From NCBI GenBank assembly GCA_021292105.1, contig CM037861.1, forward strand, positions 54,090,920 to 54,154,919: a stretch of DNA of 64,000 nt, given 5' to 3'. The DNA is from Anadara kagoshimensis. Lineage: Eukaryota > Mollusca > Bivalvia > Arcoida > Arcidae. Position numbers and translations under genes: made by a program. Of the stretch, positions 149 through 36,188 are shown in pieces. The notes below the pieces were generated by a model. The model worked only from the letters and a program-made list of their open reading frames with translations, was not told where the DNA came from and did not search any database. Within the stretch, counting starts at the first letter, position 1, and the number at the start of each line of letters is the position of its first letter.

Positions 149-3100
149 CTGGTTTCCAAACGGCGTATGATTTTCGAAAATAACCTGTCCAGAATTCTTT
201 ATTTGCCAAGAATATGTTCTTTTCAATGGTTTGAGAGTCTGCAAGTTCTAAATTATAAGTTGTACATTCACTGACGGCATCTTGCCATTGTTTCGGCTGC
301 ATACGCTCAATTAGATGTCCTGAAAAATTAGATTTTGAACATTTAAAAAATATAACTACACTTAACGGTCAATAACAAATATTTCAGGGTGGGATCAGAG
401 ACATATGACAGTATGGACAGGGTAGTCAGCCCATCAAACAACCGAAGCGTAGATTGTGATATAAAAGAACAGCTCGATATTTCCTTTTTCTATTGATAAA
501 ATGGCTACATTGTAAGTTTACTGTTACTTCCTGTAAATCGTATCGGGTCACCCTGATATGAATTCATACAATAAACAAAGGGTTTAAATACTTACTTCGA
601 CTGTCTTGACAGAGTACAGGAAACATAGCGGTACAATTACGATCTCTATATTTATATACTCCTCCACGTACTTCCACAGTTAGACACGAGTTATTGCCTT
701 TATCCACTATACTTAATTCTGTAAATTAATCAATGAACACAATTAAGAGCAGAAATCTGAAATATGGAATGTCGCACAAAAATGATTGCACTTGCAGTGG
801 CAGATTCAGAGGGATACAGGGGTTGGAAAACACCCCTTTACTTCTGTCCATGATATAGTATTAAGTTTGTGTCTATCACTTGCTCAAATTGCAGGAAATT
901 GCAGGATAACAGTTTTGGGGAGTGTGTCCAAGACCCTCTAGGTCTTTTTTCACCATCAGCAAAAATGGTTTCCAACCTTTCTAAATTTCCTGGGTCAGTC
1001 ACTAAAGACCGATGAAATTGGACTACTAGTAATACCGGTAACACTATAGAATTGGACGTGCACTGAACATAATAGGAAAACAAATTACTCATAAATATGA
1101 TATGGATAGTGGGCACTTTTGGTTTATATATCCACATGGAAATAAATATTCTGTTGAAAGCCATCTTTACACACGGAATACATCCGTTGATTTTGCCGTT
1201 TTTAGATTGATCGAATGGGGTGTTACGTCCAAATAAAGAACATTTCACTTATATCGAAAAGTCACGAGCTTTATTGGCAGACATTTTAACCTTTCAAAAT
1301 TCAGAAGGTATTTTTTACGAGTCACAACAGGTGATTTAAGGTCTCTTCCGAAGGAACCCATTACTTTCATTTCTAAATGCCGAGTGATTGGCGAAAGAAC
1401 AGTCACTACCTATCTTCAAGTCTTGGTCAATTGTTTTAAAATTATGCTTTACAGAGCATTGTTTTCAAATGATACATGTACAAGGGTCGTTCAAAAAGTC
1501 TTGTCCCTTCCTGTAAACCGTAAATAAAACACCGTAATTTAATATATTGTCACTTGTCACGGGTGACTGAGTTCATTCCCAAACATGGAACATTTTTAGA
1601 TTATATATGCAAAAGAATTAGTTTTTACTTGCCATATTTTCATCATAACACTCATTACACTGCTTGGAAAATGACGGACATGACAGGTAAAAACATTATT
1701 GAAATGAGAAGCTTCATGAAAGCCTGTGCAAAACTCGTTAAATCGCCCAATCAAACATTCATTGAAATGCAAGATGTTGTTGGTGAGCGAAAGCTGTCAT
1801 ATAGGTCCATCTCATGCTAGATACGTAAATTTAAAAATGGTGTTAACGACATTTCTGATAAGGCCCGTTCTGGAGGACCAAAAACAGCATGCACCAAAGA
1901 AAACATTACAGAAATTCAAAAACTGGTCAATAGGGATGGAAGGTTGACTGTAAAACAGATAGCTGAAGTCGTTGGTTTATCAATGGGGGCCGTACATTTC
2001 ATTCTCAGAAAAAACTAGTCATGAGAAAGATTTGTGCTAGATGGATCCCTCATTTGTTGTCAAAAGAGCAAAAGCTCACAGGGGTCAAAATGGCTAAAAT
2101 CTGCTGAAAATATATGGTAATTGTAACAGCAGGCGTCTGGCTGATATAGTTACAGGTGAAGAAACATGGGTATATTACTTTTAGCCACATAGAAAGATAA
2201 ATAATAAAATATGGATAACCATGCAGAAAAAGAAAACGACCTGAAATTGCAAGGCGCACTCAACGCACAAAGAAAGTTCTTTGTGCTATATTTTTCAATA
2301 GTAACGACATAGTTGCCAAATTCCCATCCTTAAAGACCAGGGTATCACGGAAAACATTTATAAAAATAAATTCTTAAGAAAATGAAAAAAAAATTATGAA
2401 AAGAAAAGACCAAAGTCAGGAATTCGTGGTATTCGGTTACTCCATGACAATGCTCCTGCTCACAAATTAAGTTGGTGACTGAATTTTGTACAAGGAACGT
2501 GTTGTTGTTTTACCTCATCCACCTTATTCACCTGATCTTTCACCGTGTGACTTTTATCTCTTTCCTAAACTTAAGAAACACCTTTCTGGTCGTCGATACA
2601 GATCTCGTTCATCGCTAGGTTCAGCAATTCATTAGTTTCTCAATGGTATATCCAAAAAAGATATGCAAATGTATTTAGAAAATGGATCCAGCGACTTAAA
2701 AAGTGTGTAGCCGTTAAAAGTAGTTATTTTGAAGGAATGAAAATAAAATATCATAAATAAAACGTCTTAATTTGTGTTTTTATTATGAAGGACAAGACGT
2801 TTTGAACGGCCCTCGTAATAAGGAACTCAGTCTGAAAATAAGAAATAGAGAAGAAGAAACATCTTACACACCATCAATGCCGTGGTTATAAATATTAATG
2901 TATTCATGGTATCCAAGTTTTCCACTCCCACCACAAAGTTCATTTGTATTTCCAGGGCAAGTTTTTTGGCAGAACGATCCAGAAACTTTCTTAAGCTTGG
3001 GGAACGTAGTGAGGCAATAACAAGTCTCATTCTGAAAAATAACCATTTGGTCTGCATTGTAATTAGATCATAAATAAACTGAAATTTTAGCTGACATTCA

Positions 3101-5676
3101 GAACTGCTATGGTTATAATCATGGTATTTAACCTAAGCGTCCGGCTTCAACAAGAATTTTTTAGCGTATTTTAAAACTGTAGTTATTAAGCTCTATGTTA
3201 CTATGTTTTTCTGTTCGAAACAATGCTTAAACTCTAGAAGAAAAAAATAAATATCTGTTTCCCTAACAAAAGTTGGCTATGAATTTTATTTTCGTTTAGG
3301 AAATATCTAGAGCACGACAGCATGTTTAACGATACAGTATGTGTGCACTTTAACAAAAAGTAGCTATACGCTCTGTAGCGTCACAGCAACATAGGAATGA
3401 TAGGGTTAATATATACCTTTTGAAATTAAAAGCGAAGAGTGTCCAACATTGAAATAAGCCAGTGTAATGCATATTAAAATAACAAAAAATCTACAAATAC
3501 ATCAAAAAAATTTAAATGGTAGTCTGAGGTAGGGAATTTTTTTGACAAGATTCTCGCTCTGTACATACTAACAAACCAATTGGCAACTGATCTTTACATC
3601 TTCGTAGACATGACAAGGGATTGTTTTCCTTCAGAGTGTAAAAACTTCGTATTTGGATGTATTGTTCGACGTATCTATAGCAACCTATTTAAATAGAATA
3701 TATAAAGTAACAACAGAATAATAATATTCAAAGTCACCAAGAAAACTTTATAACTTCATCATACCTTGAATAGGTAAATATAAACAGCATGATAGAGACA
3801 AATTAAAAAAAAACTGTTTATAAAAGTATATACTTCAGACGGACACTGAATATAAAAACAAAACGGGATCCAGTGGTGAGGTTAAATTTGTCTTTCAAGA
3901 AATGTAAAGCAGTCGATTCAAAGTGCTAATATCCTTGCAAACTTAATAGTTTTTAACGGGCATGCATATAACTGATACATGTATTACGTAAAATTTCCAG
4001 AGCAATAAAAAACACACATTACTGAAACATAAAGAAAACTTAAATTAAAAACAAAAGATATAATCAAACACAAACATAAAAGTCACAACCGAAAAAGAAA
4101 AGAGATTAAGTTAAACACCTGAACTTCCACCAGGGAAGTGAGGCAGGGTGCTCCGGAAGGGTAAGCACATCAGTCCTGTATAGCTAGCTTCATCCACCAT
4201 GACATGAAACGAAAATTGCGAATGAAAGGAACATGAAACTAAGGAAATAGTTGAAAACCTGTCTTTGTTTGAGATACATGTGTATTTACGAAACTTTGGA
4301 CAGACATAATGACATGCTTTTGGTGATATCGAATCACGTGACTGTGCCTTATGTATCATCCGGAATATGTTTAGAACTTCTAATGAAGTTAAAATATATT
4401 TTTACCAGCATTTGCTATCCATGGTGACCATGTCGTCACACCGTCTAACCATACGGGTAATTTATCTACAAAATCACCCAATATTGGAGTTTGTCCGAGT
4501 AATGTTCCACCACTAGACTCGCACGAATACTTTGCTGTACTCCAGTTGACTTGATGATTGCTATAAACATATCCAGCTAAAAATGGGATAAATCATTCAT
4601 ATAATAATTCTAGAAATTCGTGGAATAGCTCATCACTGACGAACTTTGTGTTTGGCATTTCAGGCGTTAAATAACTTTTAATGTAGATATAGTAAAAAGT
4701 AAAAATCTTATTGCATTCATTACCAAAAGGAGTTTTATAGACTTTTTTTCATTTACTAGTGTATTAGTTATATTTACGTATGATACCGGTATGGTGTGTC
4801 TTTATTTTAAAGTACATGCTAACAAAATTACTCATAGATCTACATACATACTATAAAGAATTCCAGAAGACGAGTTAATTTCTGATATGAGGCAGTCTAC
4901 CTCAATACAACGATATATGGTTCAACTAATGCAACACGAAGTTACAAATAATAAATAAATGAATGAATTAATTAATAATCACGCATACCATGGCCAGTCC
5001 ATACATGTCCACCAGGGAAGTGAGGGTGATAAATAAAAAATAAATAATATAAATAAATAAATAAATTTAATGTGTACATAAAGAAAAAAGTGGAACAGAA
5101 ATAAACTTTAAAGTACAATGTATATGTGTTTGTAAGATACAGAAAATAGAAGAAACCCCTGCCAAAATCCACTATAAGTCTTTATTGGCTCTAAATATAC
5201 ATTTAATTTTTAGCCACAACATATATCCAAGTCTTAATTGATAATAACATTCTCATTTTACTAGAATTTTAAAATTTTAAAATATTTGGCCAATGACAAA
5301 TTAATGATACTAATACACTTACATCAAGTGTGCATGGATATAGTACACGCCATTTGCTGTTAAATAGAAATTAAATACTTGACTTATTGAATAGTTATTG
5401 ACTATGCCGGATGTCATTATAACAAGTTACGTATCCATGCCCATGAGTGCACTTAAATAAACATCGAAGATGTCCCTGTCACATATATATATGTATTTGA
5501 TTTCCTTCAATCGATAAAGCCCGATTTGGTCAAATCCTACATAAACACCATTTTTATACCTATTCTTATATTGGTGATTAGCATAAAGGTGAAGATTCAC
5601 TCTACTTGTCATACATACCATCTGTGTCGGAGACAAGTAACACCGTGACAAATATCAGGAATTGTAAAACAGCCAT
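149..5676 (-). CDS. Receptor A: WSC/C-type-lectin-like receptor, 5' portion (partial)
   Basis: Six exons on the minus strand: 5619-5676, 4406-4576, 3569-3684, 2872-3031, 596-718 and 149-319. All have GT-AG borders and compatible phases (1,1,0,1,1,1). Exon 1 starts MAVLQFLIFVTVLLV, a signal peptide. Exon 2 is the first half of a C-type-lectin-like domain (CTLD; W-S-T-A-K-Y-S-C, then LPVWLDG). Exons 3 and 4 form a WSC domain with eight cysteines (IGCYRY; CYC, CQKTC, CGG). Exon 5 completes the interrupted CTLD (SCLTVE, RNC, VLCQ). Exon 6 begins a second CTLD (WTGYFRKS). The gene continues off the left edge, so its CTLD end, linker, membrane helix and tail are not visible. It is a tandem paralog of Receptor B, with the same exon order and nearly the same exon lengths. 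No WND or EPN/QPD sugar-binding motif is seen, so calcium-dependent glycan binding is not supported. Extracellular ligand unknown. The intron between exons 4 and 5 holds a mariner element. Confidence 0.85.
1481..2815 (+). mobile_element. mariner-family DNA transposon, both ends present, transposase decayed
   Basis: About 1.34 kb bounded by imperfect inverted repeats (left begins CAAGGGTCGTTCAAAA, right reverse complement CGAGGGCCGTTCAAAA) and flanked by TA on both sides (1479-1480, 2816-2817), the mariner target duplication. The interior reads as a plus-strand transposase in fragments: DKARSGGPKTA near 1855, RKICARWIPHLLS near 2027, DETW-like EETW near 2160, LLHDNAPAH near 2440 and PHPPYSPDLSPCD near 2513. 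It is broken by several stops and frame changes, so it cannot encode active transposase. It lies in an intron of Receptor A, on the opposite strand. Confidence 0.93.
4095..4210 (-). repeat. Dispersed repeat family A, partial copy
   Basis: Contains the family hallmark read on the minus strand: CATGGTGGATG, TAGCTAG, a purine-rich CTTCCGGAGCACC box, then CACTTCCCTGGTGGAAGTTC and TTTAACTTAA. Other copies are near 7660, 9829, 11497, 15650, 21725, 24640, 26390 and 43530. No coding capacity or terminal repeats recognised; class unknown. Confidence 0.7.
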
Positions 5677-8652: not shown

Positions 8653-9180
8653 GGTGTTGATTTTGACTTAGTGCCGAAATTACTGGTTACCTATTGACAA
8701 TCTCACTGTAACATTTGATTTTCTTGTATGATCATAAATTTATACCATCGGCGTTGGCAGTTCAGGTCATTTCGGCATGTGGCAAGTAATTTCGGTACCA
8801 AGTCATATAAGCACCGGTGTTGATTTTGATTTGGTGTCCAAATGTCTTGTCACATATTGACAATATCACTGTAACACCTTTGTTGTGTAAACATAAGTAC
8901 CATCTGTGTTGACAGTTCAGGTCATTTCGGCACGTGGCAAGTAATTTCTAAGCACTGGTGTTGATTTTGACTTGGTGCCGAAATTACTGATTACCTATTG
9001 ATAATATCACGGTTACATATGTGTTGTATGATCATAAGCACCATCAGCGTTGGTAGTTCAGATCATTTCGGCACTTCGCGGGTAATTTCGGCCCAAAGTC
9101 ATTTCCTCACTGGTGTTGATTTTGACAATATCATTGTAACACATTTGTTGCATGATCATAAGTATCATCAGCGGCGGCAG
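8653..9180. repeat. Tandem array (period 140-163 bp) reaching the 3' coding end of Receptor B
   Basis: Units begin GGTGTTGATTTTGA at 8653, 8816, 8957 and 9112. Each contains a segment that, read on the minus strand, resembles the last codons of Receptor B (TYDHAT in the gene; AYDHTT and TYVYTT in downstream copies). The fourth, shortened unit overlaps the true stop codon at 9131. The downstream copies lie after the stop and are presumably non-coding or 3' UTR. Confidence 0.85.
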
Positions 9181-12100
9181 TTTGTGGTTTATGCGCTTTA
9201 TCTATGTGAGAAATCCCGTAAGTGTCTGTTCCACTAACATCATACAAATTGCCATCGTCAACGTTAAATGAAACCCTTTGTCCTTTTAACTGCAAATGGT
9301 CGTATTCGCCGTCATCCATCCTTGGCTCTGACTTTGCAGGTTGCTCCAGTGTTTCGGGCTCACAATAAGTATCCGTTTGTTTTGGCTTAGGTTCCGGGCC
9401 TGGTTCCACGTACAACAGGGCTGCTTGTTCTTTAGTTGGTTCACGCACTGACTTAGTGTTAAACGTTTCACGCTTTGCTCTAAATTAAAAAATAATAAAG
9501 AAATATAAAAGTAATCAAGACGGATTTTACAAACACACCCGTTTATCATTATGTGTGACTCAATGGTACTTTTGTGAAATAAATAAAACAATCCACTCAC
9601 GGCAATTCGCTAAAGATTCGCTGGTGAAAAGAACTTTGTATGAAAGCTTCTTTGCATACAAGAAGGAGTTGAAAAAGTTCAATCCTAAACCATTTGGATC
9701 TACAGGGGGTGGGTGGGGGTTTATTCTATTTTATAAAATCGGTCCAGCCTGTTGATTTTTGCAAGTATTACTTCTGTGATTGAGATTTATGCCTATCATA
9801 TTACACACGTGGCGGATGTAGATAGCTAATCAGGAGGTGCTTACCTTTCTGTAGCTCCTGGTTTCATTTTCTTGGTGGAAATTCACATGTTTTAACCTAG
9901 TTTTTCAGTTTTAAAGTTTTGGCTTTGATTTGGGATTGTGATCTAGACATGGATTAGTATGTTTTGATTTTTATTCGTAAAATTAAAAATGTTTCGAAAG
10001 CATCAAAGGTGAAAAGCTTACCAATTTTATTGAATATTCATTGATTTTTATTAAACTTTAAACTTGTAAAATATATATACTTGCCTTCTACGCTTGCAGA
10101 TAATAACGACAGCTATAATTATTACCAGCAATATCACCACACCACCTACAGACGCACCAATAATGACTGAAATAGTAAGAAGTTAAAATGAGTTATAAAA
10201 ACTACTACCATAGTCACCAGCATACTACGGTGGAACAAAAGTGACATGGAATATATATAACGTGCACACGAAATATAAAACTATTTTCCATGTCACTTCT
10301 GTGCCACCGTATCATGCGTCTATGCTGCGTTTTGAATTTTGTACATTTTTGTGCATTTTTTGTCGTACCGTATCGTGTTATTTATAACTCTGGCTATTGC
10401 CAACAAATACGCACCAATCAACTTCAATCATCTAGATTTAATTTTGTTAAGTATGCCGATACATTCACAATTGGAATTAATCTTCCTTAGATTAACCTAT
10501 TTGTGTTCGCAGTAATTCAATCGTTCCCGAACAAGGCCTGGGTTATGAATGCATTGTTTAATGTGTCAACATTCCAACCTAAAATCACGTTTCTATTCGT
10601 ATTTGGAAAATCGCTGTTTCACCAATTCCATGTTTGTCGGAATCTTGGATAAAATAAATTAATGTAATATAATGTTTTATTTCTGTCATCATGCTAACGC
10701 GGTTTATTCAATGTGCAATTCCTCTCATTCATAATATGGAATGAATACAATACAATAGAATATTATTTCTTAAGTCTACGTGGCAAATATAAAATTAAAA
10801 CTTCGAACATGTGTGCAAATATGGATGGGATCATTTTGGTTTTTTATGGTTTAAATGTCTAAAAAAAAGCGGAATGTTCAATAAAAAGTAAATGAATAAT
10901 CCCATCTGTGAAATATTTTGTTAAAAATATGATTAATATACATTATTTTATTATTCGAAACCCAGTATCAGAAACCATTGTTTTGACAAATCTTTCCTAT
11001 AGCTCGGTGTGCGATTACATATGATATATCAGCATTAGACGGTCGTTTCGGAATACAATTCGTCATCTGCAATTTAAATTTTTCAGATGGCCATTAAAAA
11101 TGTATTCTTAGTGCAATATGACGATGGACACCAAGGCAGCACATCAATATCTTGGCATTCATGCAATGTTAATTATAGGTCACTATGACTTAACAACGAC
11201 GTCTTTTGGTAAAATAAGGGATCAATGAGTTCCGTCTAGAATGAACACTATAGGCATATGTAATGAAAACAAAACTGGTATCAGCAAACAACACTGACCT
11301 GTCTGCTTGACCTTTGATTTAAATATTTATTATTAGAAAGTAAATATCCGTATAGACACACAAGTATTAATTCGTATACATATTACTAAATCCGTACATT
11401 GGTTATTAACTGCTAATTCTGTACTGAGTGACCCCTCTTATATGACAAATCCTGATAAAAGGTCAAGCAGACAGGTCAATGTTGTTTTCATCCAAGTTTT
11501 ATAGCCGTCATCATCACAATATTATTGGTAAATATGATGTCTCTGTACATCCAAAATTAACCTGAATATAGTTAACGTACCATAGTTCTATGTTCTTTTC
11601 ATTCCAATTTTGATTACGTTCATGGCGGGTATACCTATCTAAACGGGAGGTGCTCTCACTTCCGGAACACCCGGTCTCACTTCCTGGTTCAAGTCCACGT
11701 GTTTTACTTAATTTGTCAGTTTCAACTGATTCACTTTGCTTTGCGATTTTGGTTTGGACATGGATAGATATGTTTGATTATGCTTTCAATCCAAATTGTT
11801 TACATACCTGGCAAATTTATACCGGCATCTTCCTCGTCTTTTTGTTTTTGAGGCTGTCTTGTTGTGAGTCGAACATAGGACGGCGACGTCAGTGGATCAA
11901 TTGCAACTTCTTTCTCTGTTGATAAGAAATAAAAAGGTTCAGAAAGTATCCGATTGATCGGAAAGATCATCTGTCAGTTTCATGATAGGTTGTGGTATCC
12001 GGTTTTATATTTTACAATCAAAAACCTCCAACAATAGAGAATAGCAACAGCTAAGCGATCCTAAGCAACTTCGAGAACTTGACTGCAAATATATTTCACA

Positions 12101-14191
12101 TTCAGCTGCTCCATTAAAATTTTTTGTCCAACCACAAGTGAAAGACAATTGTTTGATCAAACCGCTTACAAAACTGTTAAATGTCAAATTCAGAATTATA
12201 TATGTGATACAAAAATCTTAACAATTGTACATTGCATTGTTAAAAATATATTCAATACAGCTTGTTCATTTTATAGTTACCTTTAAAGGATTAAGATAAA
12301 ACGGTCTATACAACGACAACAACAATAACACCACTAAAACCATCTCATCTACATGCCAAAGCAGTCGAGGGCTTCAAAAACGCTCTACAAAATTGCTGCT
12401 AACAGCACCAAGCAGCACTCTCTCTGTCGTTGGTCTAATATCCAGAAGTGGATCCATCAACGTACTAGTATATATATACTGATACAGATACAGATCTCTC
12501 CCACCCCAAAAAACCCAAACCATGCTATTGCAATATATACTATTTGTTCTGATGCTCAGTGGGGAAAATGTTCAACATTAATCTGATAAGAGAATTCAAA
12601 CAAGAACTGAATAGTTTCAATGATCTTACTCAGTCCTTGTCTTAAAAATAATGTCATCCGAAGGTAAAAGTATTCAATGTTACAAAATGTTTTGAAAATG
12701 ATCTTCTATAACTTGGATTTTATATACATGTAGGGTATACCTTTGACACAGATAAAGTGGTTAAGTTGACTGCAGTTCTTCACTTTACTTTCGCCATTTT
12801 CCAATAAATAACAACCAATGGGATTCTTCACCTCACCGGCTGAAATAAAAGTTTTGTGTCAATCTGAACCAATGCGACAATTTCTTGTAATGTGACAATT
12901 TCTGGTAATGTGGCAATTTCTGGTATTGTGACAATTTCTGGTAATGTGACAATTTCTGGTATTGTGACATTTTTCGAAACGACACCCACTTATTGACTAT
13001 CGGTTTAGTAAATGATTAGACAAGTTTGAAAAAAACTATATTATTGTGTACAGCTAAGGGACCAGTAAAAGTGGCCCTTATGAGCAGGTTGATTTTATAT
13101 ATAGGCTCAAATAATATGAACAAAGAACAATCGGGGTACAATTCTACTGGCCTTTATAAGCAGATGGTCCTTATATTGAGGTGGCTTTTAAGACAGGTCG
13201 GACAGTAACTTTAATCGTTCACAAACATCTAGGTTTTCCCTTTACTTGCCAACTTTGTCGCTTATCAGTTTTCTTCAGAACCCCTTTCAATAAAATTGCA
13301 TGTAGTGTCATAAAATAATATAAAGTTTTCAATTTTCTGAATGAAAAATTCACGAATAAACTGAAAAATTGAAAAATTTATAATCTGACAAAAGGATTGT
13401 TATATAGACGACTGATCTGGTACATTTTAGGTCACGTATTGATATGGAAAAAATAGGTTGACAGAATAATTACTACAGTCTAACCTGCCTTAAAGGCCAC
13501 TTCTATATATGGGCCACCTGCTTATAAAGACCTGTGTAAAATTGTATAATAACTGTTCTTTATTCATATTATTTGAACCTGTTGATAAAGGCCACCCGTT
13601 CATAAAGACCAATTTTACTGGTTCCCTTTGGTTGCCTTTATAGAGGTTTGACTGTACATGTAGTTTTATAGATGTCCCATGAAGTCGATGGACATGCATT
13701 ATAGTAAATAGAGTTAACTTTGATATGCAGATTATTATAATGTGTACTTACACTCTTAAAGTGGCTCAAATTGCAGTTAGTTCATTTGAGTACTTGTTTA
13801 CCTTATAAACGAACATATTTTTCTTTCTATTATTTTTTTTAAAATTTATTATTATTATTATACATGTATCTAGAATCATTATTTATACTTATTTGTATTA
13901 CCGCTGTCAACAATTAAAGCTTACTTTGTTTCCACATTGGAAATGATTTCCGGAAATATCCAACCCAATAACCTTGATTTTTCTTGACTCTATTGTCTAA
14001 TACAAATTGATCATTCGCCAACACTAAATTATTTGCTTTACATGTCTGTAACGCGCCGTTCCAATTTGTTTTTGTATCGAATACTTCTACATGTCCTAAA
14101 ACAGATAATAAATCATTAGATAAGTTAACAAGTCGGTAACTAAGATACAGTTGTATTATTTTAACTTTGTAATGTGGAAACTCTGACCATG

Positions 14192-14227
<36 letters not shown>

Positions 14228-17200
14228 CGCCAAAGACCTTAAACTTAAGGGTACAGTGTATCACAAAAACAAGTGCATCGCATAAAGGGCAATAATAATA
14301 CGCGAGTTCGCAATCTAAAATAGTTTTAAACTAAATAAAATGGCAAATGGTCATCTTTCAAACATACCAGCATACCACAATGTCTTTTTATAAATTAGTT
14401 TCACATTGCCATATAGTTATCGCTGTGATGCTATATACCCACCAGTTGTTTCATTTTGACACAAGACTGGTAACATGCTCGTGCAGTTTTGAGCCATGTA
14501 TTTCTTGTTGCTAAATTTAATTTCAACTGTAAGACATTCGCCATCGCCTGTCACATCTGTAGTTTGAATATCTGAAATCAAATGACATGTTCGATAAGAC
14601 TAGAATACAGATAAACTGAAAGGGAACATATTAACATAAGCCCCTTCTTCGAAAATCAACGTTTTTAACCATTTGACATAAAGCACAAACCTGAATGGCA
14701 AAGTCACCGAGTCCACAAGAAACAAAACAGCTTATAAAACAATGAAACTTCATCCTATCAAACTTAAGATAAGAAACTGAATATTAAGTAAAAATATTGA
14801 AATAAGTGCACATCGGAAATAGTGCGCCATGGAAAGGAATGTAGGTAGAATGTATCTTTTCTATTGTTAAGTGTTGATTATTAGACAATCATGTAATGGA
14901 TCTGTTGACATATGGGCATCATGAATAAAATACTGCAAAATCCATTACTATGTCGCCGGGTACATAATTATACACTTTACAGTCTGGCGCAATAATAATG
15001 AACCAAATGAAAAGTAGACTATCCAAAGCCACAAACAGTACATACATGTCCAAAGTTTAACACTAAGCTAACGAATTAGTACCGAATCGACAGCTTATCT
15101 CAGCTTCTCGTTACCTACATATCGACAACTTTTTATGCAGATAATATCGATCTCTTGGCAGCTTTTACTTGGCCAAGTCAATAAGTAACCACCTTAACTC
15201 ATTTCCAGTTGAGATCAACTTCTTCTTTTTCGATGTAATTGCCATCTAGTGATGCACTTAGACCAACAGTGTTCAAGTGACATATGTCCAGACCTGATTG
15301 TTATTGTTCTTTTTTTGGGTAAAAACTCCAACATAATAGCACGCTTTGCATCCTAAAATACTGTTGCCATCACCTTGCTGGCAGACGGTTGTTTCTTGAA
15401 CTTCTTTGGCCTCGGGCACCCAGGCCCTACCCACTGGCGACTTCGAGTTTTATTCTCCGGCTCATAATAATGAACACAAGTCTCAACTACAGTCGCCAGA
15501 CGCTAAAGAAAATCATCTTTGACCTAAAACGCTTTAACAAGACCTGGTTACTTACTGACTCGAACCTCATTAACTAACACGAGGCAATGCGTCGCATACC
15601 AAATTTAGGTTCATGGGTCAAGGGCAATGACTCAAAAAACTTATGAGTGTAATCAAAAACAAAGCATACTTATCCATGTCCGAATCACAATTCAGAAGCA
15701 AAGTAAAAACTTTGGAACTGACAAGTAGGGTAAGACATGTGAACTTCCACCAGGAAAGTGAGGCCGGGTGCTCCGGAAGGGTAAGTTCCTCCTGTTTAGC
15801 TAGCTACACCCGCCATGTATGTAATCAAAATTGTGTGAAATGAACATGTAACTAAGGGACGTCAAATATATCCAGGACAATCCTGGACACAGAAACATCT
15901 AACTTATCAACAATACTGTGATGACGGCCATAAAAGTTTTTGAGGGCCTTTTATAAGGCTAGGATTATAATATCCCTGAGTCAACAATTAATTGAAAACA
16001 GCCTACTTTGTTGTACATAGTCTACTGACATGTACATGTATGTAGATTAAGTTTTGACAACTTTAAAATAATTTTGTTTTTCTTACATATGTGACAAAAT
16101 TATTCCAATTTAATACAATGGTATATCGTGACATTTTATAGTTATATTTAAAAGAAATGTATCATGAAGATCAGTTACCATGACTACCATCGTAAACTGT
16201 GACGTATTCATCAAAAGATTCGCGAGCTCCACCACACAAATCTTTACTATCTCCGGTACATGTTTTCGTACAGGTCAAACTCGATGCTTTCTGCAGGTTA
16301 AAATTTGGCTTCAAACAGTAACAAGCGTCTTCCTAAAAAAAGAGTTTATATATAAGTTGGTACTTTTTGAGTGGAAAAAATAAAGACCAAACTATTGATT
16401 TCTTCTAGGAAACGAGATGCCATTCAAGCAGACAGTCTTTAAGTGTTTTTGATGCCAAGATCGGATGTCATTGATATCGATACTGATAACCATTTAAAGG
16501 TTAAGTTATATATAGGCTAATATATTAGAATCTCTCCACAGCGGTCTGCGATTCACAGTTGCTTTCACAGCAAAGTTCAAATAAGACATGTACATGTCTT
16601 ATGTGAGATGGTTTGTAAGGACACTTTGCTTTTCTCCAAAGCCCGGTACAAACAGAACAGAAGCAAAATGGATAGTTTTATCCAAATAATATCTGAACCA
16701 GAAAGGGACAACCATCTTTTCAACTAGTTCTATTTTGCTGATGAATGTTCTTTTCTTAATTTGTGGGCTTTTTGTTCCATTCCTGTCCAACAGTCAGTTT
16801 TCCCCTCCATGCTAAGTCGTTAACAAATTGATGTTTTAAATTTCCGTATTAATTATTGTACGTAATATTAAACTTCCGATTGCTAATTACACATGGCGAA
16901 TATTAAAACTACATATTATAAATTATAGTTATTGTTAAAACTGGTTGCACTTTCACCATTGCCCGGAAATTATCTGCTTGAAAAAGTTCAGAGGTTTATT
17001 AATCTCTGAAGGCCACAATGTTGTCCTATATATCATACACTTACCAGTAAACCAATGGGTAATTCGTTTTCACAAAACTTTGAGCAACCAACTGCACTAT
17101 TCGAACTATGCAATACATTGTGTTTTTTAACTTCTGCTGCGTTGTATCTGTAGCAACCTATTGGCAAAAAATTTAAATTTTATCTCTAAAACGTGAGAAA

Positions 17201-19098
17201 AGGCATTTAATCATGTTTCCTCCACGTAACCCCGTTACTAAGGTAAAGCAAAACAGAAATCCCAACAGATCTTCCATTTTTCCATTAATGTCGGCTTTGC
17301 TGCGAAGTGTGCAATTACATGGTGATACAAAGTGATATGTCCAGGACTCAAGATGTGATAAAATATAGAAAGTCCCAAATGCATATCTTGCATAGTCAGA
17401 ATAACCAAGAATAAACATAACACAAAACATTATTTTTATTACACAGTACTCAAGTAACACGTATTGAGACTTATTGCAAAACTTTGGACATTAACCATCA
17501 CCAAAACAAACCGTCTCAATGACAATTGGTATGATAATTTACACCATAAATTATATTATAAGTACATAAATATCTCAAACGGGGTTTGCCAGTGTACCAC
17601 GTGAAAACCCATAACGTTTAGAGCTGCGGACAATGTAAGTATTTCCATTGGAGATGGAATCACTTCAGTTCACATTTTCACGTGAAAATTGCGACGTAAA
17701 ATCATCAAAAACGTCCCACAGGAAGAAACGTTAAGGGGTATTGATCGCGCGTTATCGGTACGCTGGCGAACTCCATTGACCTGAGAACACGACACTAAAT
17801 TAAACACGTATTAAGAGGGAGATGAACATCACCAATAAACCGGAGTTTAACGCATATTGTACTGGTCCTCGTCTAATTTTGAAACCTAATTCTATTTCAT
17901 ACCTACCAGCGTTTGTCATCCATGGTGACGAGGTTACTACACCGTCTAGCCAAACAGGTACATTATTGTCATGTTCATCTAAGTTGAAAGCCTGCTGAAG
18001 TAAAGATCCAGCAGCACTCTCACATGTGGATTTAGCTGTTTGCCAAGTCGTAGGGTTTTTACTGAGGACATGTTCAGCTGTAATGGACAATTTTTATTAA
18101 AATACAGTAAAATGAGTGTAAAATTTTACACACAAGTTTCGAAACGTACGTTTTTAGTCTCATCAGCCAATCAATAAAATTTAAAACGTTTTTTGATAAA
18201 CAAGTACGGTTTTCAATTCAGAAATGTGCCATCTATACTAATATCTTGGCTTGTCAAGTTTGACCCTGCCGCTTGACCTTTAATTTGAATATTTATCAGG
18301 AACGATCGATTATAAATATAAGGGTATCAATACAAATGTCGCTAACGACAGCAGACAGATGTATTAAATAACCGTATAAGAAGTATATACCACGATGACC
18401 GTGTGGTTAAAGTTTATTGTCTTATGATCTGTATTCCGAACGTTCAGGGTTCGGAGCACACGCTTGTGCCGTATTTTACAGTACTTGTACTGTTCACTTT
18501 TTATACACTTTGTATCTTATAAATGAAAAATTGTGCATTTATTTTGGGTTTTAATTAATTGAATATATATTTTTATTATATTTTTTCTTAAGATGTATGC
18601 ACTTCTCTTTCAAAAGAACTAGCAGTATTACAAATTGTGTTTCTAGCATCATTCGGCCATTTAGATATTTAATTGTGGATTCTGTCGGACATGTTTATAA
18701 TCGTTAGAATTTCATACTACACTGAAAAAGAGAGAATGGTGCACGGATTTTTCACGCGTGAAAGAGGCGCAAGAAAATCAAGTAAATTTAACAAACAAAA
18801 AAATGGGAAGAAAAAAATCAGGTTTGAACCGTTGACCCAGTAGCCAGTTTAACAATTATGTAGACAACACATTAACACGCTCGGCCACCCTGGTTGTTGA
18901 CTTTGAACGTGGTTGCAAAAGATAAACCCATGAATCGTTGTTTCTTATTTAAACATTATCGATACACGTATTTTTTATATATTTTTCTCAATTCATTTTA
19001 TATATATACCGTCAGTGGCGTACCGCCCTATACGCAAAAACGCAAGTGCGTACACATAAATTGGTCAAAAATTATTTTAAAATAAAAATAAGTATAAG

Positions 19099-19168
<70 letters not shown>

Positions 19169-20446
19169 CTAAATTTTCCGGTTTACACTCTAAACCATGC
19201 CACCTACAACAACCACGGCCGAGAGAAGTTTCAGTGCGCTGAAACATCTCAAGACTTATTGAAGGAGCACAATGAAAGAAGATCGCCTTTCATCTCTTAC
19301 ATTAATGCACATACATCATGAGATAGACGTCGACGTAGAGACAGTTATTGACACATTTAACGCACAGAAGAAGAGGAAAATTAACTTTGAATGACCAATA
19401 AATACTAATATACATTTGTAATCGTCGGTTACGATTATTAAAATAATCCAAAAATTTCTTTTTATTGTATAAGTATAGTACAATTCAAATTAAGAATGGA
19501 AGTAACAGAGATCAAACAGCAAGAAACAGGCACACAATAAATAAAACACTAATACAAAATTAAAAAAATAATAATTTCGATTTCAATAAATTATGCATCA
19601 TCATTTATAATCGGAGATCAAATCTGAAAATCTTTCAAATTATCAAACCAAAAACTTTTATCCATTTAAATCTATGATAAAAACGCAGAGAACACGTGTG
19701 GTTAAACCTGGTACCAAACCTTCCACTCCCATGGATCAGTAGGATCCGCATATTTAAAATTTGTAATTAAGCTCCAATCTATATCAAAAATTTGACATGA
19801 GAAGGTATTGTATATCTGTCTCAAAATGCAGGAAAAGCCGTTTTGAAGCATATATTTCAAAATTTTCCGGGGGAGCATGCCCCCGAACCCCCCTAGCGTG
19901 GTCGCGCCTTCGGCGCTCCAACTTTGCGTTCACATATAATCAGGTCACGGTACGCCGCTGCCCGTGAATTTAAAAAAAAAGACTTAGTATATTTCCGTAC
20001 TTTTGAAAAAAGAATTCAAAAGCAAACGTCTTATTTTTAATCAAGTATACCATGTACTTCATAATCGATCATTCCTAATAAATATTTAAATTCAAGCGGC
20101 AGGGTCAAACTTGACGATCTATACATATATAAATAGCTATCATTTTAAAGACGTGTACACGATTTAAAATAGCAATATAAACACCATATTTACATACATG
20201 TACTACCACACTTCCTGGTAAACAATATGTATTGCATAGTGCAGTTTTATTATTTCACGTAGTAATTTTTACAAAAAATATTCACAATTATTCTGATGAT
20301 AATAATAAGTACTTATAAAGTTAGTATTATCAGTACTTTTGTTAGATATTACTTTACCTGTTTATAATAAGTCATATTCACTTACCTTTTAAGACAGTGA
20401 CACATATACACATTACACTGTACAAAACTGGAGATATACCAGCCAT
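9131..20446 (-). CDS. Receptor B: WSC-in-CTLD transmembrane receptor, complete (478 aa)
   Basis: Ten exons, all phase-compatible: 20386-20446, 17907-18077, 17045-17157, 16179-16332, 14443-14571, 13925-14095, 12741-12839, 11808-11915, 10085-10166 and 9131-9479. Order: signal peptide (1-20); first half of CTLD 1 (21-77, TWQTAKSTC, PVWLDG); WSC domain with eight cysteines (78-166, GCYRY, CYC, CTKTC, CGG); second half of CTLD 1 (167-209, ECLTVE, NC, LC); CTLD 2 (210-299, YWVGYFRKS, HFICV); polar linker (300-335); one membrane helix (336-358) followed by CKRRR; and a cytoplasmic tail of about 115 residues. Tail tyrosines: LLYVEP, DTYCEP, GEYDHL, NLYDV, DTYGI, DTYDHA. Intron 9 has a GC donor (AG/GCAAGT), required by the phase of exon 10. 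A type I cell-surface protein; ligand and signalling role are inferred only. No calcium-type sugar-binding motif seen. Confidence 0.9.
9829..9965 (+). repeat. Dispersed repeat family A, partial copy
   Basis: Contains AGGTGCTTACC, CTTGGTGGAAATTCACATG, then GTGATCTAGACATGGATTAG. Lies in intron 9 of Receptor B. Confidence 0.65.
10222..10312. repeat. Short foldback element
   Basis: Arms 10222-10251 and 10286-10312 are inverted copies (ATACTACGGTGGAACAAAAG against the complement of CTTCTGTGCCACCGTAT). The spacer is 34 bp. Intronic in Receptor B. Confidence 0.75.
11286..11487. repeat. Short TIR element (MITE)
   Basis: Terminal inverted repeats of about 33 bp starting AAACAACACTGACCTGTCTG at the left, with the mirror sequence ending GACAGGTCAATGTTGTTTT at the right. 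202 bp, no ORF. Confidence 0.8.
11497..11795 (+). repeat. Dispersed repeat family A, longer copy
   Basis: Extends from TATAGCCGTCATCATCACAA through CATGGCGGGTATACC, the GGAACACCCGGTCTCACTTC box and GGTTTGGACATGGATAG. One of the best copies for defining family length (about 300 bp). Confidence 0.75.
13050..13207 (+). repeat. MITE family B, partial copy
   Basis: Contains CCAGTAAAAGTGGCCCTTAT, then GGTCCTTATATTGAGGTGGC and a degraded right end (AAGACAGGTCGGACAGTAA). Same family as 13476-13656. Confidence 0.75.
13476..13656 (-). repeat. MITE family B, nearly complete copy
   Basis: Left end ACAGTCTAACCTGCCTTAAA, right end TATAGAGGTTTGACTGTA; the two ends are inverted versions of one another. Internal GGCCACCTGCTTATAAAGAC and CTTTATTCATATTATTTGAA. 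Copies recur near 13050, 23678, 60231, 62533 and 63180. Confidence 0.85.
14194..14225. repeat. (GT)n microsatellite
   Basis: About 15 GT dinucleotides in an intron of Receptor B (between the CTLD 1 end and CTLD 2 exons). Confidence 0.95.
15650..15955 (-). repeat. Dispersed repeat family A, longer copy
   Basis: Minus-orientation copy. It spans the equivalents of TGTCCGAATCACAATTCAGA, AACTTCCACCAGGAAAGTGA, GGGTGCTCCGGAAGGGTAAG, CCGCCATG and CTGTGATGACGGCCATAAAA. Confidence 0.75.
18826..18897 (-). repeat. tRNA-like (Leu/Ser type) sequence, probably a SINE head or tRNA pseudogene
   Basis: On the minus strand the segment has a box A-like GGTGGCCGAGCG and a box B-like GGTTCAAACC about 60 bases on. 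The stems are not well formed by eye, so a working tRNA is not claimed. Confidence 0.45.
19013..19960 (+). mobile_element. hAT-family transposon remnant with C-terminal transposase fragment
   Basis: The ends are inverted relatives: CAGTGGCGTACCG at 19013 and CGGTACGCCGCTG ending at 19960. From 19199 a plus frame reads the hAT dimerisation region: TTAERSFSALKHLKTY, then a TGA stop, then RSTMKEDRLSSLTLMHIHHE and a final DTFNAQKKRKINFE with a stop near 19394. The rest of the transposase is missing. A (GA)n(GT)n tract lies at 19103-19166. No convincing 8-bp target duplication was found. Confidence 0.8.
19103..19166. repeat. (GA)n(GT)n compound microsatellite
   Basis: Uninterrupted GA repeats followed directly by GT repeats, inside the hAT remnant. 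Confidence 0.95.
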
Positions 20447-22737: not shown

Positions 22738-22789
22738 ATGGAAAAATTAATTCCTATAGTTTTTATTGTACCTTTCGTATATTGTGAAC

Positions 22790-22870
<81 letters not shown>

Positions 22871-23006
22871 TACAATGTACTTCATCAGCTAAAATTTAAT
22901 TTCGTGTATTTTATTCAAACAATTCACAAGGGTATAACAGGTACAAGTTTGAATTTATTATTAAAGTTAGAGAGATTTTTATCTATTTATTCATATATAT
23001 ATACAG

Positions 23007-23083
<77 letters not shown>

Positions 23084-26000
23084 TTTATTTGGGAGTGGAT
23101 TTTTTATAATAGTTATCTTTTTTTTCAATTTAAATTATTTGTGAATTGAATTATTTATATATTTATTTATTTGAGAGAGAATGAGACGGTTAGAAATAAT
23201 AACAATAATCATAATATTAATATTTATTTTTGCAGTTATGCTATCTCCAACGGATCTAACATGGAAAGAATCAAATAAGCAGTATGACTTATTAAGCAGA
23301 GAAGTTCTTTGTGATAATACAACCTCGTCATCCTGTGCATTTGTACTTAAAGATGAAGATTTCAACATAAATGGAGATTTTACTGCATGGGTTAAAGGAT
23401 ATGTCATCAAATCACCGTTCATGAATTCAATAGGTAAGAGGTAGGGGTTGATTAACACAAAAGTACTTGTATTTGACATACATTATACCCAATACCTTAA
23501 ACACAGTCAAACCTGCCTATAAATGTCAATAACATAAATGGAGATTTTATTGCATGGGTTAAAGGATATGTCATCAAATCACCGTTCATGAATTCAATAG
23601 GTAAGAGGTAGGGGTTGATTAACACAAAAGTACTTGTATTTGACAAACATTATACCCAATACCTTAAACACAGTCAAACCTGCCTATAAATGTCAACTTT
23701 GGAAACCAGTAAATTGGCCTTAATTGACAGATGTACCTTAAAAACAGTTTCAAACAACACGAATAAAGAGCAAAGGGGAAAATTTACTGGCATTATAAAG
23801 CAGGTGGTCCTTATATTGAGATGGTCTTTATCATGTTTTTGACAGGTTTCACTGTAACACACCCCAACATTTGTTTCTGACAAAACACGAGTTTGTGATT
23901 GATAGAGTAAGCTGGATTAGTTATTTACAGCCATATTTTTTATTTGTTTATTATAAGTCTGACGTTGTTGGTTCGCTGTAATTTTGGAGTGGTAAACAGG
24001 GTTGCCTTGCGCCCCAGTTAGTTACCCATCCTATGTTGGTCCTAATGTTTATTCGTTTCGTTCGCGCGTTGTGTCATGTCACGTTCTTGGTTGGTTGGGG
24101 TTTTGCCAAGTCTTGTAATCTGCTGGCACTATATAACGTTAGTTATTTGGATTCATAAAGAATAATTTTGTCTAACTTCACATCGAAACAGTTACTAAGT
24201 AAACATTTCGAATGTTACGGGAGAGGGTGCCATTGTGATTGTTAAAATGATTTCTTATTGTTCTACTTAGTCCATTTTCAGACCATTTATTACTATACTT
24301 CATGGTGCATTAGACATCGGTGTTGTTATGTTGCAATTGTTGAGTGTATTTAATGGCTCTGCCTACTGTAAAATTGACGTTATTACTATAACCAAATTAC
24401 TGGACACCGCTTCTGTCAATATCATGTAATCATGTTGTATTAGTAGATAAGTTGGCTATTGCCAAGATCATCAGTCTTCTATTTCATCATTATCTATTGT
24501 CCATTCAAATTAGAATGTTTATCTCTATCAATGAACTTAACATGTCTTTTTTTACTTGTTTGCTGGTTCTTTCAAGTAGTTTTTGCTTGAAGTCTTTTGG
24601 TGCATTTCGTTAAACAGTAAATAAAATTGTTTTGGGTATATTTGACGTCTCATCGTTCCATGTTCCTTTCAGTCTCAATTGTTAATTTCACACTTGGTGG
24701 GTGTAGCTAGCTCGACAAGAGGTGCTTGCCCTTCTGTAAAGCCCCGGGCTCACTTCCCTGTTGGAAGTTCGTCTGTTTAATTTAATGTGTCAGTTTTCAA
24801 AGTTTTTCCTTTGCTTTTGAGTTTGTTGTTTGGACATGTACCGGTACTGCGTTGAAACCATTCCATGTTTTACATTTACCCTTTTTTCAGATGAGCTACA
24901 AAGCCCCCTTGCAATTTGTTTTAATTTTTGATGCGATATTTATTTTATTCGCTAAAACTAATATGTGCCCTTAATGATGGATTAAAAAGAGATTCTTTTA
25001 TTATAAAATAAATTTTATTTAAAATAAAACAATAACAAGTTACACAAATGATGATAAGTTATACTGCGTTTCACGCAAATTAATAATGACATCGATATCA
25101 TTAACACATATGTTAGAAAGTACTAGTTAAGCACAATTTAAATTAAGATGAATTAAAACTTATTGTGATTTATCATGACTAGTAAATAAATTAATTCACA
25201 AAGAATACAAACCCTGAAACACTTTAAAAACAATACAATTTCGAATAAATAGTTGTATGAGAGATGAAATAGAGATCTATTAAATTATGATCACATAATG
25301 TTTATCACGATTTGAACAGTAATTTAATTACAAGTCATCGTGGTTATGACTATCGCCGTCTTCCGTTGTTGAACTTCCTGTACCGCCGCCATTTTGTTGG
25401 TAAAGTTTACTTATAATCGGGTTAGCTATATTTTCAACGTCCGACTTTTGTTGTTTATATTCATCAGTACTAGCACCTTGGTTGCTATCTAACCATTTTA
25501 TTTTTTCATCAATTATATTTTGCAATGTCTCTTTATCTTCGGAACTAATTTTATCTCCTAATTTTTCTTTATCATTTAGCTGATTTTTAAGATTATAAAT
25601 ATAACTTTCGAATTCATTTTTAGCTTCAACTCTTTCTTTTAGTTTCGAATCTTCCTCTGCAAACAGCTCTGCTTCTTTGATCATCCTGTTGATTTCATCG
25701 TCTGATAGTCTGTCATTATCATTTTGGATGACAATGTTATTCTTCTTCCCGGTTCCTTTGTCTTCTGCTGTTACAGTCAATATTCCATTGGAATCTATTT
25801 CAAATGTGACCTCAATCTGTGGTATGCCTCTTGGAGCTGGAGGAATTCCAGTCAAATCAAATCTACCGAGGTTATGGTTATCTTTGGTCATTGGTCTCTC
25901 TCCTTCGAAAACCTGAATGGTAACGGTTGGTTGATTGTCTGCTGCTGTAGAAAATATCTGAGACTTTTTGGTTGGTATATGTGTGTTTCGGGGTATTAGT

Positions 26001-29000
26001 TTTGTCATAACACCACCTACAGTTTCAATGCCCATAGTTAGAGAGTTTACGTCTATCAATATGATCTGGGGATCTTCTTCCCCACTCAAAACTCCCGCCT
26101 GAACAGCGGCTCCATATGCCACTGCTTCGTCTGGGTTGATGGCTCTGTTTGGTTCCTAAAATAAAACAATACAATATCAATTAAACACAATGTTATAAAA
26201 TGTTATTTTAAACTATTCATCAGCGTGTACTTCATCGGGATATTATTGTAACAATTATGTGAATGGCATTGAACAAAGGAATCCCCAATTTACAAATTTC
26301 TGAACCGTTACAGAACAAGTGTTATGGGAAGTAACGCAAACTCAGTTCATATTATGATAGTCACTATAACATTAGAGTACTTGAAGTAACTGCATGGAAA
26401 TCCTCACTAAAACCGGAAATGACAAAAATCAAAATCTTACTTTTTGGAATTAAATATTTATAGTAAGGATAAAAACAAACATAACAGTCCATGTTCAAAT
26501 CATCATTTAAAAAATCACACAAAAAAACTTTGAAAACTGGCAAATCTAGATAAACACATTCCAACCAGGATATGAGACTGCGTTATTTGAAAGGGTAACC
26601 GCCTCCTGTTTAGCTAGCTGCATCCGTCATGCAAGTGGTCAAATTTGTAGTAAGGGGAAGGCATTGAAACATAAAAAGTAACAAGAAATAGTTAAGTAAT
26701 TACCTTTCCGTTGAAATGATTTTTAACGAGTTGTTGTATTTTAGGAATTCTTGTAGATCCTCCTACCAGTACAATCTCTGCTATGTTGTCCTCCTTTAAA
26801 TTAGCGTCTTTTAATACACGTTTAACTGGGTTTAATGTTGATCTAAATAAATCCTGTCAATGGAAGGTTAAAACAACGATAAGAATTTAATCCATAAAAA
26901 CGTATTTTATAAGTGATGACAATATTATTGAAATTAATCTTATAACTTTATTTTGTAAAATATTTTAGTAACTTTAAAATTGATTTTGATAAAAGTCAGT
27001 GCAAGTAGCTGTACTCGTGTTTAATTAATTGAAAGAATCGCGAATGGGACTCATTTCTCCTGTATTCGCCGTCATCAATATAAAGTAGTGTAAGTTTGCC
27101 ATATGTAAACGACTAAGCCATATTTGGTCATGTGAATAAAGTTATGTGAATGAAGCCGAATGTTACATCCCAGCTTGTTAAGGTTAAAATGATCTTCACA
27201 AATTTACTACTTGTGTTTGTATAGAGGTATTAAATTAGCTTTAATTTAATTTCACGCATCTTGTTATTTAGTTATATTTACATATTTGAAGTTATCTCAT
27301 TTCAAATTAACAGATTGCACGGCACGTTCTTGGACATTTATGGACAATGCAATTTGATTATTTGTCCATAGACATTTTTTCTTGACTTTTTAATTACTAG
27401 TAAGTAAAAACTTACCATATTCAACTCTTCAAACTTGGCACGGGTCAGGGTCTCTGAAAAGTCTTCGCCATTATACAGTGATTCAATTTCTATCCTGGTC
27501 TGGTGTTGTGATGACAGTACACGTTTTGCCTTCTCAACTTCACGTCTTAATTTCTGAACAGCTCTGGCGTCTTTTCGGATATCCAAACCCTTTCTCTTTT
27601 TAAAGACTTTAACAAAATAATCCATAACTCTGTGATCAAAATCCTCTCCCCCTAAATGTGTATCCCCGTTGGTTGCCAAAACCTCAAACACGCCATTGTC
27701 GATGGTGAGTAAAGTGACATCAAAGGTGCCGCCTCCTAGATCAAACACTAAAATATCCTTTTCCTCGCCTTTCTTGTCCAGTCCATAAGCAATTGCAGCA
27801 GCCGTTCTGTAATGAGAAATACCAGTAATTAGAATCATTTGATGCCGATACTATTACTTAGACATAGATTTAGAAGTAGAACATGTCGAATCATACGGCA
27901 CTTGCACAAAATTGTAATGTCAAGTACATGTATACCGTCTCGATGTAAGTGAAAGAATTTTGACTGTGACATTAAACTCCATTACTTCACTCAAGTACAG
28001 ATATAACAGATATAAAAGTACAGAGAACCATCTGAACAATTTTACACAGTAGTACAGATTGCTGGTGTTTTCCAAATTCTACCGTATCTAGTTGAATTGG
28101 AAACTTTTATTTGTTATCAGTCTAGACAACACCTTCAATGAGGCAATTTAGTACTTTGGGAACGAGTAACTAAACATCCACTGGTATTGCAATATATGTA
28201 TAAGCATATTAGGAAGTAAAGGTCAAGAACTTTAAGATCACTGAGCGTACTCTGAATCAGGATACTAAAAGAATCTAGTCAGAACCAAGGTAAAATGTTA
28301 TTCTGTCAATCTTTAAAGTATTAGATATAAATATACATTGATAACTTACGGTTCGTTTATGATCCTTTTAACGTTGAGTCCGGCAATCGACCCAGCGTCT
28401 TTAGTAGCCTGTCGTTGTGCGTCGTTGAAGTAAGCCGGGACTGTAACAACGGCATGGTGTACTTCATGGCCGAGGTAGGCTTCTGCGATCTCTTTCATTT
28501 TACGGAGTACCATGGCTGAAATTTCCTCAGGAGTAAACAATTTACTGCCGTTTCCTACGCCTACTTCTATGGTCGGTTTGTTGTTCCTATTGACGACTTT
28601 GAAAGGGTATAACTTGATATCTTTCTGTACGGCTTCGTCATCCCAACTTCGTCCAATCAACCTTTTGACGTCAAATATGGTGTTCTGTGGGTTTGATGTA
28701 AGCTGATTTTTGGCGGCATCGCCTATCAGTCTCTCCCCGTCTTCGGTAAAGGCTACGTATGATGGTGTAATGCGGTTACCCTGATCATTGGCAATTATCT
28801 CCACTCTACCATTCTTATACACACCAACGCTAAAAAAACACAAGTTTTGATACATATACTTATTAGCCGTCATGCATAAAACTTATAGTTTCACCGATTT
28901 GGCATTTCATTTTAGTCCATTCCCTCTTTTGCAATATCATAAATTCATTCCGATTAAATATTGTTTGCCTACTAGAACATTAGGAGTTTTGTATTTAAAT

Positions 29001-30610: not shown

Positions 30611-30655
<45 letters not shown>

Positions 30656-30900
30656 AATGTGAACAAAAAAAAGAGAAATATGAAAATAAAAATTAGCCAA
30701 ATAAGGAGCTTCTTAAGACATTAGGTAAATTTTTATGCCAGGATATGTCAAATGAGCGTATACCCCAACCTTCAAATCTACCTACCTAATTATATCATGA
30801 ACCGAAAATTTGGGGACATAAAATTTATCGTCATTTCTAAGGTAGTGTCCTCACATTGTACATGCAAATGTGAAAAAAGCATAATAAATTTCCGGATATT

Positions 30901-30942
<42 letters not shown>

Positions 30943-31727: not shown

Positions 31728-31785
<58 letters not shown>

Positions 31786-36137: not shown

Positions 36138-36188
<51 letters not shown>

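Follow-up and report, generated by a model that had tools for sequence, protein, structure and literature searches.

WSC domains placed by exon arrangement inside a C-type-lectin-like domain in a family of predicted bivalve membrane receptors

C-type-lectin-like domains (CTLDs) are among the commonest recognition folds of animals, and their diversity usually arises at the variable loop of the fold. A pattern of four cysteines is characteristic, with one cysteine in the helix and three near the end, and in the sugar-binding C-type lectins the long loop carries EPN or QPD together with WND motifs. The CTLDs of the NK-receptor type, such as NKG2D, KLRC1 and CD69, do not have these sugar-binding loop motifs, and we know of no domain inserted at the loop in any of the three.

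The closest described systems are polycystin-1 and the REJ-type proteins, whose ectodomains combine WSC with C-type lectin domains in a single membrane protein (PMC9672506, PMC1934368). As far as we are aware, the domains are counted there as separate, whereas in the genes described here the WSC domain interrupts the CTLD. Domain insertion as such is common (PMC13114784), and the integrin alpha I domain and other insertion architectures resemble the present case in that a whole domain interrupts another one and may take over ligand binding (PMC10659397, PMC13114784). The domains involved are different ones, however, and the main text of PMC13114784 mentions neither lectin nor WSC. Bivalve transmembrane C-type lectins are also membrane CTLD proteins; the available text of a review on them names the signal peptide, CTLD and transmembrane parts and has no wording on nesting, insertion, inserted domains or WSC (PMC12842671). 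No description of a nested WSC/CTLD arrangement was found in the open-access literature. Consequently, what appears to be new is the nesting of WSC in a CTLD, domain insertion in general being already known.

The region analysed, referred to as the window, is a stretch of 64,000 nt (C5:54090920-54154919) in a genome of 1.1 Gb in 36 contigs. Receptor B is encoded on the minus strand (20446-9131) by 10 exons with clean splice sites, and its predicted product of 478 aa consists of a signal peptide, the N-terminal half of a first CTLD (CTLD1 N-half), a WSC domain with eight cysteines, the CTLD1 C-half, a second CTLD (CTLD2), a stalk, a transmembrane segment and a cytoplasmic tail. Exon 1 (20386-20446) holds the start codon and the signal peptide and ends in phase 1. 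The CTLD1 N-half, which has the helix, VWLDG, PWMTNA and a single cysteine, is exon 2 (17907-18077, phase 1-1). The first and second halves of the WSC domain follow in exon 3 (17045-17157, phase 1-0) and exon 4 (16179-16332, phase 0-1), i.e., the WSC is entered in phase 1, split in phase 0 and left in phase 1, and the CTLD1 C-half with GECLTVE...NC...LC and three cysteines is exon 5 (14443-14571, phase 1-1). The two halves of CTLD2 are exon 6 (13925-14095, phase 1-1) and exon 7 (12741-12839, phase 1-1), the stalk is exon 8 (11808-11915, phase 1-1), the transmembrane segment is exon 9 (10085-10166, phase 1-2, with a GC donor) and the cytoplasmic tail, which has six tyrosines, is exon 10 (9131-9479). 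The nine introns are GT-AG except for the GC-AG intron after exon 9. Exon 4 has a second possible donor nine bases further upstream, which leaves the phase unchanged, and a direct join of exon 2 to exon 5 stays in frame (phase 1). As an exon arrangement, the nesting of WSC inside CTLD1 is thus confirmed. The exon order, phases and cysteines given in the original prediction all agree with the gene model, its splice sites and the cysteine counts, and the halves of CTLD2 do lie in adjacent exons (6 and 7) joined at phase 1, as had been claimed.

The full nested order is present in four (B, D, A and F) of the six genes of this type examined, the six being B, D, A, F, G and E, with copies at C5:7.87-7.95 Mb left out of the count. 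When the genome was searched for relatives of receptor B, only its own locus was found, apart from weak matches. Gene D is a tandem copy on the minus strand (4576-149) that continues into the neighbouring loci L017 and L018, and it has the same order and phases as B: CTLD1 N-half at 4406-4576 (phase 1-1), WSC halves at 3569-3684 (phase 1-0) and 2872-3031 (phase 0-1), CTLD1 C-half at 596-718 (phase 1-1) and CTLD2 N-half at 149-319 (phase 1-1). Its CTLD2 C-half exon and tail-like frames are to the left of the window, in L017 and L018.

Receptor A is on the plus strand (22738-40302) and has two WSC domains between the N-half and the C-half, followed by CTLD2, again with the phases of B. A signal peptide exon (22738-22789) is followed by a degenerate CTLD1 N-half (23236-23433, phase 1-1), the first WSC (30483-30604, phase 1-0, and 31443-31611, phase 0-1), the second WSC (32311-32426, phase 1-0, and 34442-34601, phase 0-1), the CTLD1 C-half (36204-36332, phase 1-1), the CTLD2 halves (36802-36963 and 37447-37575, both phase 1-1), a stalk rich in Ser and Thr (37898-38029), a transmembrane exon (38703-38778) and a cytoplasmic tail (39594-40302, acceptor at 39594 or 39600) with seven YxxI/L/V motifs. 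Gene F, which is 44 Mb away (C5:10.30-10.32 Mb), has the two-WSC order of A, and its splice sites permit the same phases. Gene G (C5:10.25-10.28 Mb) has the second half of a WSC, a C-half and CTLD2 in order, its N-half (C5:10246042) being a search match only. Gene E (L047) has an N-half, two WSCs and a frame break in CTLD2; a CTLD1 C-half was looked for in this gene and not found.

The WSC domains are recognized with the Pfam profile PF01822, whose cut-off is 27.8 bits. All four spliced WSC domains of the window exceed it when tested alone (B 30.4, D 38.0, A 37.5 and 28.3 bits), and each one has eight cysteines and matches the profile over nearly its full length, as expected of a WSC domain. 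The score of the receptor B domain (exons 3 and 4 spliced) is 28.1 bits within the CTLD1 region and 25.8 bits in the full protein. For Lectin_C (PF00059, profile length 107) the cut-off is 22.6 bits. CTLD2 of receptor B scores 24.4 bits in the full protein and 22.6 bits alone, which equals the cut-off, over profile positions 2-107. CTLD1 of receptor B scores 22.4 bits against this cut-off of 22.6 once the WSC is removed, and the match covers positions 3-106 of 107; with the WSC in place, the C-half alone matches (14.7 bits). Removal of the WSC raises CTLD1 of D from 15.0 to 19.4 bits, which is under the cut-off, as is the score of the joined halves in a protein of the bivalve Tegillarca granosa (16.1 bits). 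In all three, the joined halves align over profile positions 3-106 or 4-106. The joined CTLD1 halves of receptor A have no Pfam match. A host domain that scores better without its insert is what a nested architecture predicts, and this was found in receptor B, in D and in two genes on contigs C11 and C15 that are described below.

In B, D and T. granosa there is one cysteine in the N-half, three in the C-half and eight in the WSC, so that CTLD1 fits the four-cysteine pattern (1 + 3) of the fold; the counts argue for a predicted disulphide bond that would span the insert. CTLD1 of A and F does not fit (2 + 3) and has an odd total of five. The conserved pattern of CTLD1 is W..AK..C, VWLDG and C...C...C. 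When compared with PDB entries, the CTLD2 profile has its best matches to the NK-receptor-type domains of NKG2D (E 2.3e-8), KLRC1 and CD69, although the genes described here differ from NKG2D-type receptors in their type I topology and in having two CTLDs. The receptor B ectodomain and the CTLD1 profile gave chance-level PDB matches only, the CTLD1 profile finding no CTLD, and a comparison of the CTLD1 and CTLD2 profiles was weak (probability 42, E 2.6e-4) and put VWLDG in the wrong place. An NCBIfam search returned one chance-level match far below its cut-off.

The score of the true joined halves was reached with shuffled N-halves in 0 of 1000 cases for receptor B, 1 of 1000 for D, 4 of 1000 for T. 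granosa and 59 of 1000 for A, and with shuffled C-halves in 2 of 1000 for receptor B and 0 of 1000 for each of D, T. granosa and A. The match of the receptor A N-half to the CTLD profile is weak. With a home-made profile, swapped CTLD1 halves score almost as high as joined ones, and the half-shuffle test is therefore blind to the order of the halves. When the deletion in receptor B was shifted by -25, Lectin_C gave 20.8 bits in two stretches, and a shift of +25 gave 11.1 bits, while two shuffled controls gave 14.7 and 16.7 bits; for D the shifted deletions gave 17.4 and 15.8 bits and two shuffles gave none. Deletion scans with two home-made profiles ranked the true WSC start 62nd and 35th of 102 in receptor B and 16th and 61st of 99 in D. 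The same two profiles ranked it second and first of 137 in the C11 gene and second and third of 108 in the C15 gene, where the best cut is at the WSC borders or at most five residues off. The true cut is, therefore, singled out in the C11 and C15 genes, but not in B and D.

These two genes (L034 on C11 and L033 on C15) display a second site of nesting. As read by eye, a two-exon WSC (phases 1-0 and 0-1) comes after a CTLD exon that bears the helix (phase 0-1), and the exon after the WSC, which starts just ahead of WIGG or WLGG, has a complete long loop. The first CTLD exon was identified directly in L034 only, the one on C15 being a weak search match (C15:765902, E 0.31), and the last acceptor of L034 has two candidate AGs that give phase 1 or phase 2. 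The WSC domains score 67.9 bits (C11) and 74.6 bits (C15). With the WSC in place, the Lectin_C match consists of the C-part only, and removal of the WSC raises it from 33.7 to 45.8 bits in the C11 gene (profile positions 2-106) and from 36.0 to 52.9 bits in the C15 gene (positions 11-107). The cysteines of the C11 CTLD number 3 + 6 = 9, which is odd. A splice-site scan for a hidden CTLD exon between the two parts in C11 and C15 found none that was convincing. Nesting is present in two of the four WSC loci that were examined together; the other two (L031 and L032) have no CTLD exon within their 10 kb. Judged from their predicted exons, the C11 and C15 genes are stronger proof of nesting than receptor B is, at a different intron. 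A second CTLD intron that holds a WSC makes shuffling more likely still, and nesting at two positions suggests that evolution arrived at new receptor heads in this way more than once.

The intron that would have received the WSC can be compared with introns that are empty. In CTLD1 of receptor B the intron that holds the WSC is in phase 1, directly after PWMTNA. CTLD2 of the same protein also has a phase-1 intron, three codons past its Trp, with no WSC there. In an ordinary CTLD gene on C14 (L011, of which L012 is a near-copy), a phase-1 intron interrupts the Gly codon of WIWVTG-DG, and this intron of about 470 bases has no WSC match. Give or take one or two codons, the slot therefore matches an established CTLD intron where the long loop begins. 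A gene at C5:47 Mb (L058) had also been considered as an empty-site control and was dropped, its introns being elsewhere. Ahead of the first cysteine of the C-half there are 12 residues in CTLD1 of receptor B and 11 in D, with CTLD2 equally short, as opposed to 31 in L011; therefore, the long loop of receptor B is mostly missing as well as interrupted. The original prediction placed the WSC where the long loop of a CTLD would be, and this holds for the start of the loop with the refinement that the loop is also shortened. It had further proposed that a symmetrical 1-1 module entered a CTLD intron, and the same slot and phases in D, the pair of WSCs that A and F have there and the empty introns in CTLD2 and on C14 all support that proposal.

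A look for the same order in mollusc proteins had been suggested as well, and it led to T. granosa. P0001, which is recorded as a WSC domain-containing protein, has the one-WSC nested order, and gene D is 76-83% identical to it over the four CTLD1 and WSC exons, compared exon by exon. A protein search with receptor B found P0001 as the sole relative, and a search with a two-row alignment did likewise. With receptor A (717 aa) as the query, 7995 candidates were scored and no match reached E 0.01. The single Lectin_C stretch that Pfam assigns to P0001, at residues 226-311, is CTLD2; this means that profile scans overlook a host domain that is split by an insert.

The same exon order could have other explanations. 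For example, an ancestral row of CTLD, WSC and CTLD may have lost its inner exons, in which case the N-half and the C-half would come from two CTLDs and the same protein would have arisen via deletion. The boundaries are in phase 1, so such a loss would also preserve the frame; WSC and CTLD exons are adjacent in this genome (L002, C17), and both domains occur in polycystin-1 (PMC9672506). However, exons would have to be lost on both sides of the WSC and at two different CTLD introns (the B type and the C11/C15 type), in the C11 and C15 genes the two parts, once joined, score well as a single CTLD, and the slot is an empty intron in CTLD2 and on C14. We consider this origin unlikely. A search for a hidden second CTLD half in the introns that flank the WSC in B, D and A gave chance-level matches only, besides known exons and a repeat of a receptor A exon end; the best one (17810-17673, E 0.27) is without the closing cysteine.

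About as unlikely, in our judgement, is that the two halves are not one CTLD at all, the N-half being a separate small module before the WSC, the C-half a degenerate linker and CTLD2 the sole real CTLD. The cysteines of B, D and T. granosa are odd in number in each half and even in the two together, the CTLD1 pattern given above is conserved, and the shuffle results and the C11 and C15 genes, in which nesting is clear, point the same way. What would fit separate modules are the low scores of CTLD1, which has no match at all in receptor A, the odd cysteine totals in A and F, the inability of the home-made profiles to single out the cut in B and D, and an AlphaFold2 run on P0001 with a six-row alignment that yielded no usable fold (mean pLDDT 29.4). 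A third alternative, of similarly low probability, is that the WSC exons are facultative, with most transcripts skipping them and the nested form being minor or noise. The phase-1 join of exons 2 and 5 would allow it, but a WSC with eight cysteines has been retained in B, D and T. granosa and twice over in A, and it is part of the recorded T. granosa protein.

The exons, phases, paralogues and CTLD-like halves set out above document this family, and we regard it as probable that its members are type I membrane receptors in which WSC domains, one in B and D and two in A and F, were shuffled into the first CTLD, with the CTLD serving as a frame and the WSC as a head. That the two CTLD1 halves fold as one domain and that the proteins function as receptors is what we infer from the sequences. 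A two-exon WSC cassette with phases 1-0-1 would have entered, by shuffling, an ancient phase-1 intron of the CTLD just past W-x-W, at the start of the long loop, and a like insertion at another CTLD intron may have given rise to the C11 and C15 genes. The CTLD1 halves would then come together as a single CTLD, in B and D via a disulphide from the single N-half cysteine to a C-half cysteine, and the WSC would project at the place of the calcium- and sugar-binding loop. Skipping of the WSC cassette would preserve the frame, and isoforms whose CTLD1 is empty may therefore exist.

No EPN, QPD or WND motif is present in either CTLD of receptor B, and the protein does not have the features that mark the calcium-dependent sugar-binding C-type lectins. 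Because neither CTLD has a sugar-binding loop by these motifs, such binding is unlikely, and since the calcium and sugar loop is gone, the WSC probably binds the ligand. It may be a binding head, for a glycan or a protein, that is carried by a CTLD scaffold. In yeast, the Wsc1 domain folds as a PAN/Apple domain with four disulphides, PAN domains are noted to mediate both protein and carbohydrate contacts, and the Wsc1 surface is without an apparent ligand pocket (PMC9024836). Fungal WSC proteins have been described as glucan-binding (PMC9252488), and the C-type lectin and WSC domains of polycystin-1 have been reported to bind Wnts (PMC9672506).

A disulphide-rich whole domain at the loop of a CTLD, doubled in some genes and matched by a like insertion at another intron in others, offers a clean example from nature of domain insertion mediated by introns. 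Empty slots for comparison exist in CTLD2 of the same protein and in a gene on a second chromosome. It is a tentative thought, and one that we would hold doubtful, that the CTLD served repeatedly as a frame in bivalves, with single or doubled WSC cassettes shuffled into at least two phase-1 introns and once replacing the calcium loop as the head, and that their 1-1 symmetry led to splice-switchable, immune-type receptors with an exchangeable head.

The tail tyrosines may relay a signal. The tails of B, D and A have no canonical ITAM and those of B and D no canonical ITIM. A motif, YDHLQL-GQRVSF, is common to the tails of B and D, and the tail of receptor A has two ITIM-like motifs, LLYQIL and SLYNGL.

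Two stretches located elsewhere in the same genome, both on the minus strand, also have a WSC domain within an intron of a C-type-lectin-like domain (CTLD), namely L034 (C11:4857000-4863999) and L033 (C15:759000-764999). The order in both is a helix exon, the WSC and then the exon encoding WIGG/WLGG, and the CTLD intron concerned is a different one from that occupied in receptor B, the minus-strand ten-exon gene. When the WSC is removed, the score with the Pfam profile Lectin_C rises by 12 bits in L034 and by 17 bits in L033.

The donor site of the receptor B transmembrane exon (10085-10166, minus strand) is GC. Two tail-like open frames lie collinear with paralogue D, the tandem copy of receptor B, on the minus strand at about 16507 and 15206 of the 20000 positions of L018 and L017 joined; the second is a diverged copy of the first. 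An open frame at 41289-42062 (minus strand) also resembles the Tyr-rich tail of another receptor, and no ectodomain exon of the receptor A and B family was found upstream of it within the window.

In receptor A (plus strand), the end of the N-half exon and its donor site are duplicated shortly 3' (23236-23608), the second copy of the exon end being within 23501-23608. A 7 kb intron of this gene houses several exons on the opposite, minus strand (25328-28882), which resemble those of an HSP70-type gene, the protein ending in HNHDDL. Receptor-A-like exons also form two similar clusters elsewhere on C5, at 7.87-7.95 Mb and 10.24-10.32 Mb, perhaps representing a segmental duplication or unmerged haplotypes.

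Finally, an 879 aa open frame at 50258-52897 (plus strand) has endonuclease- and reverse-transcriptase-like sequence and is perhaps a LINE-type element.
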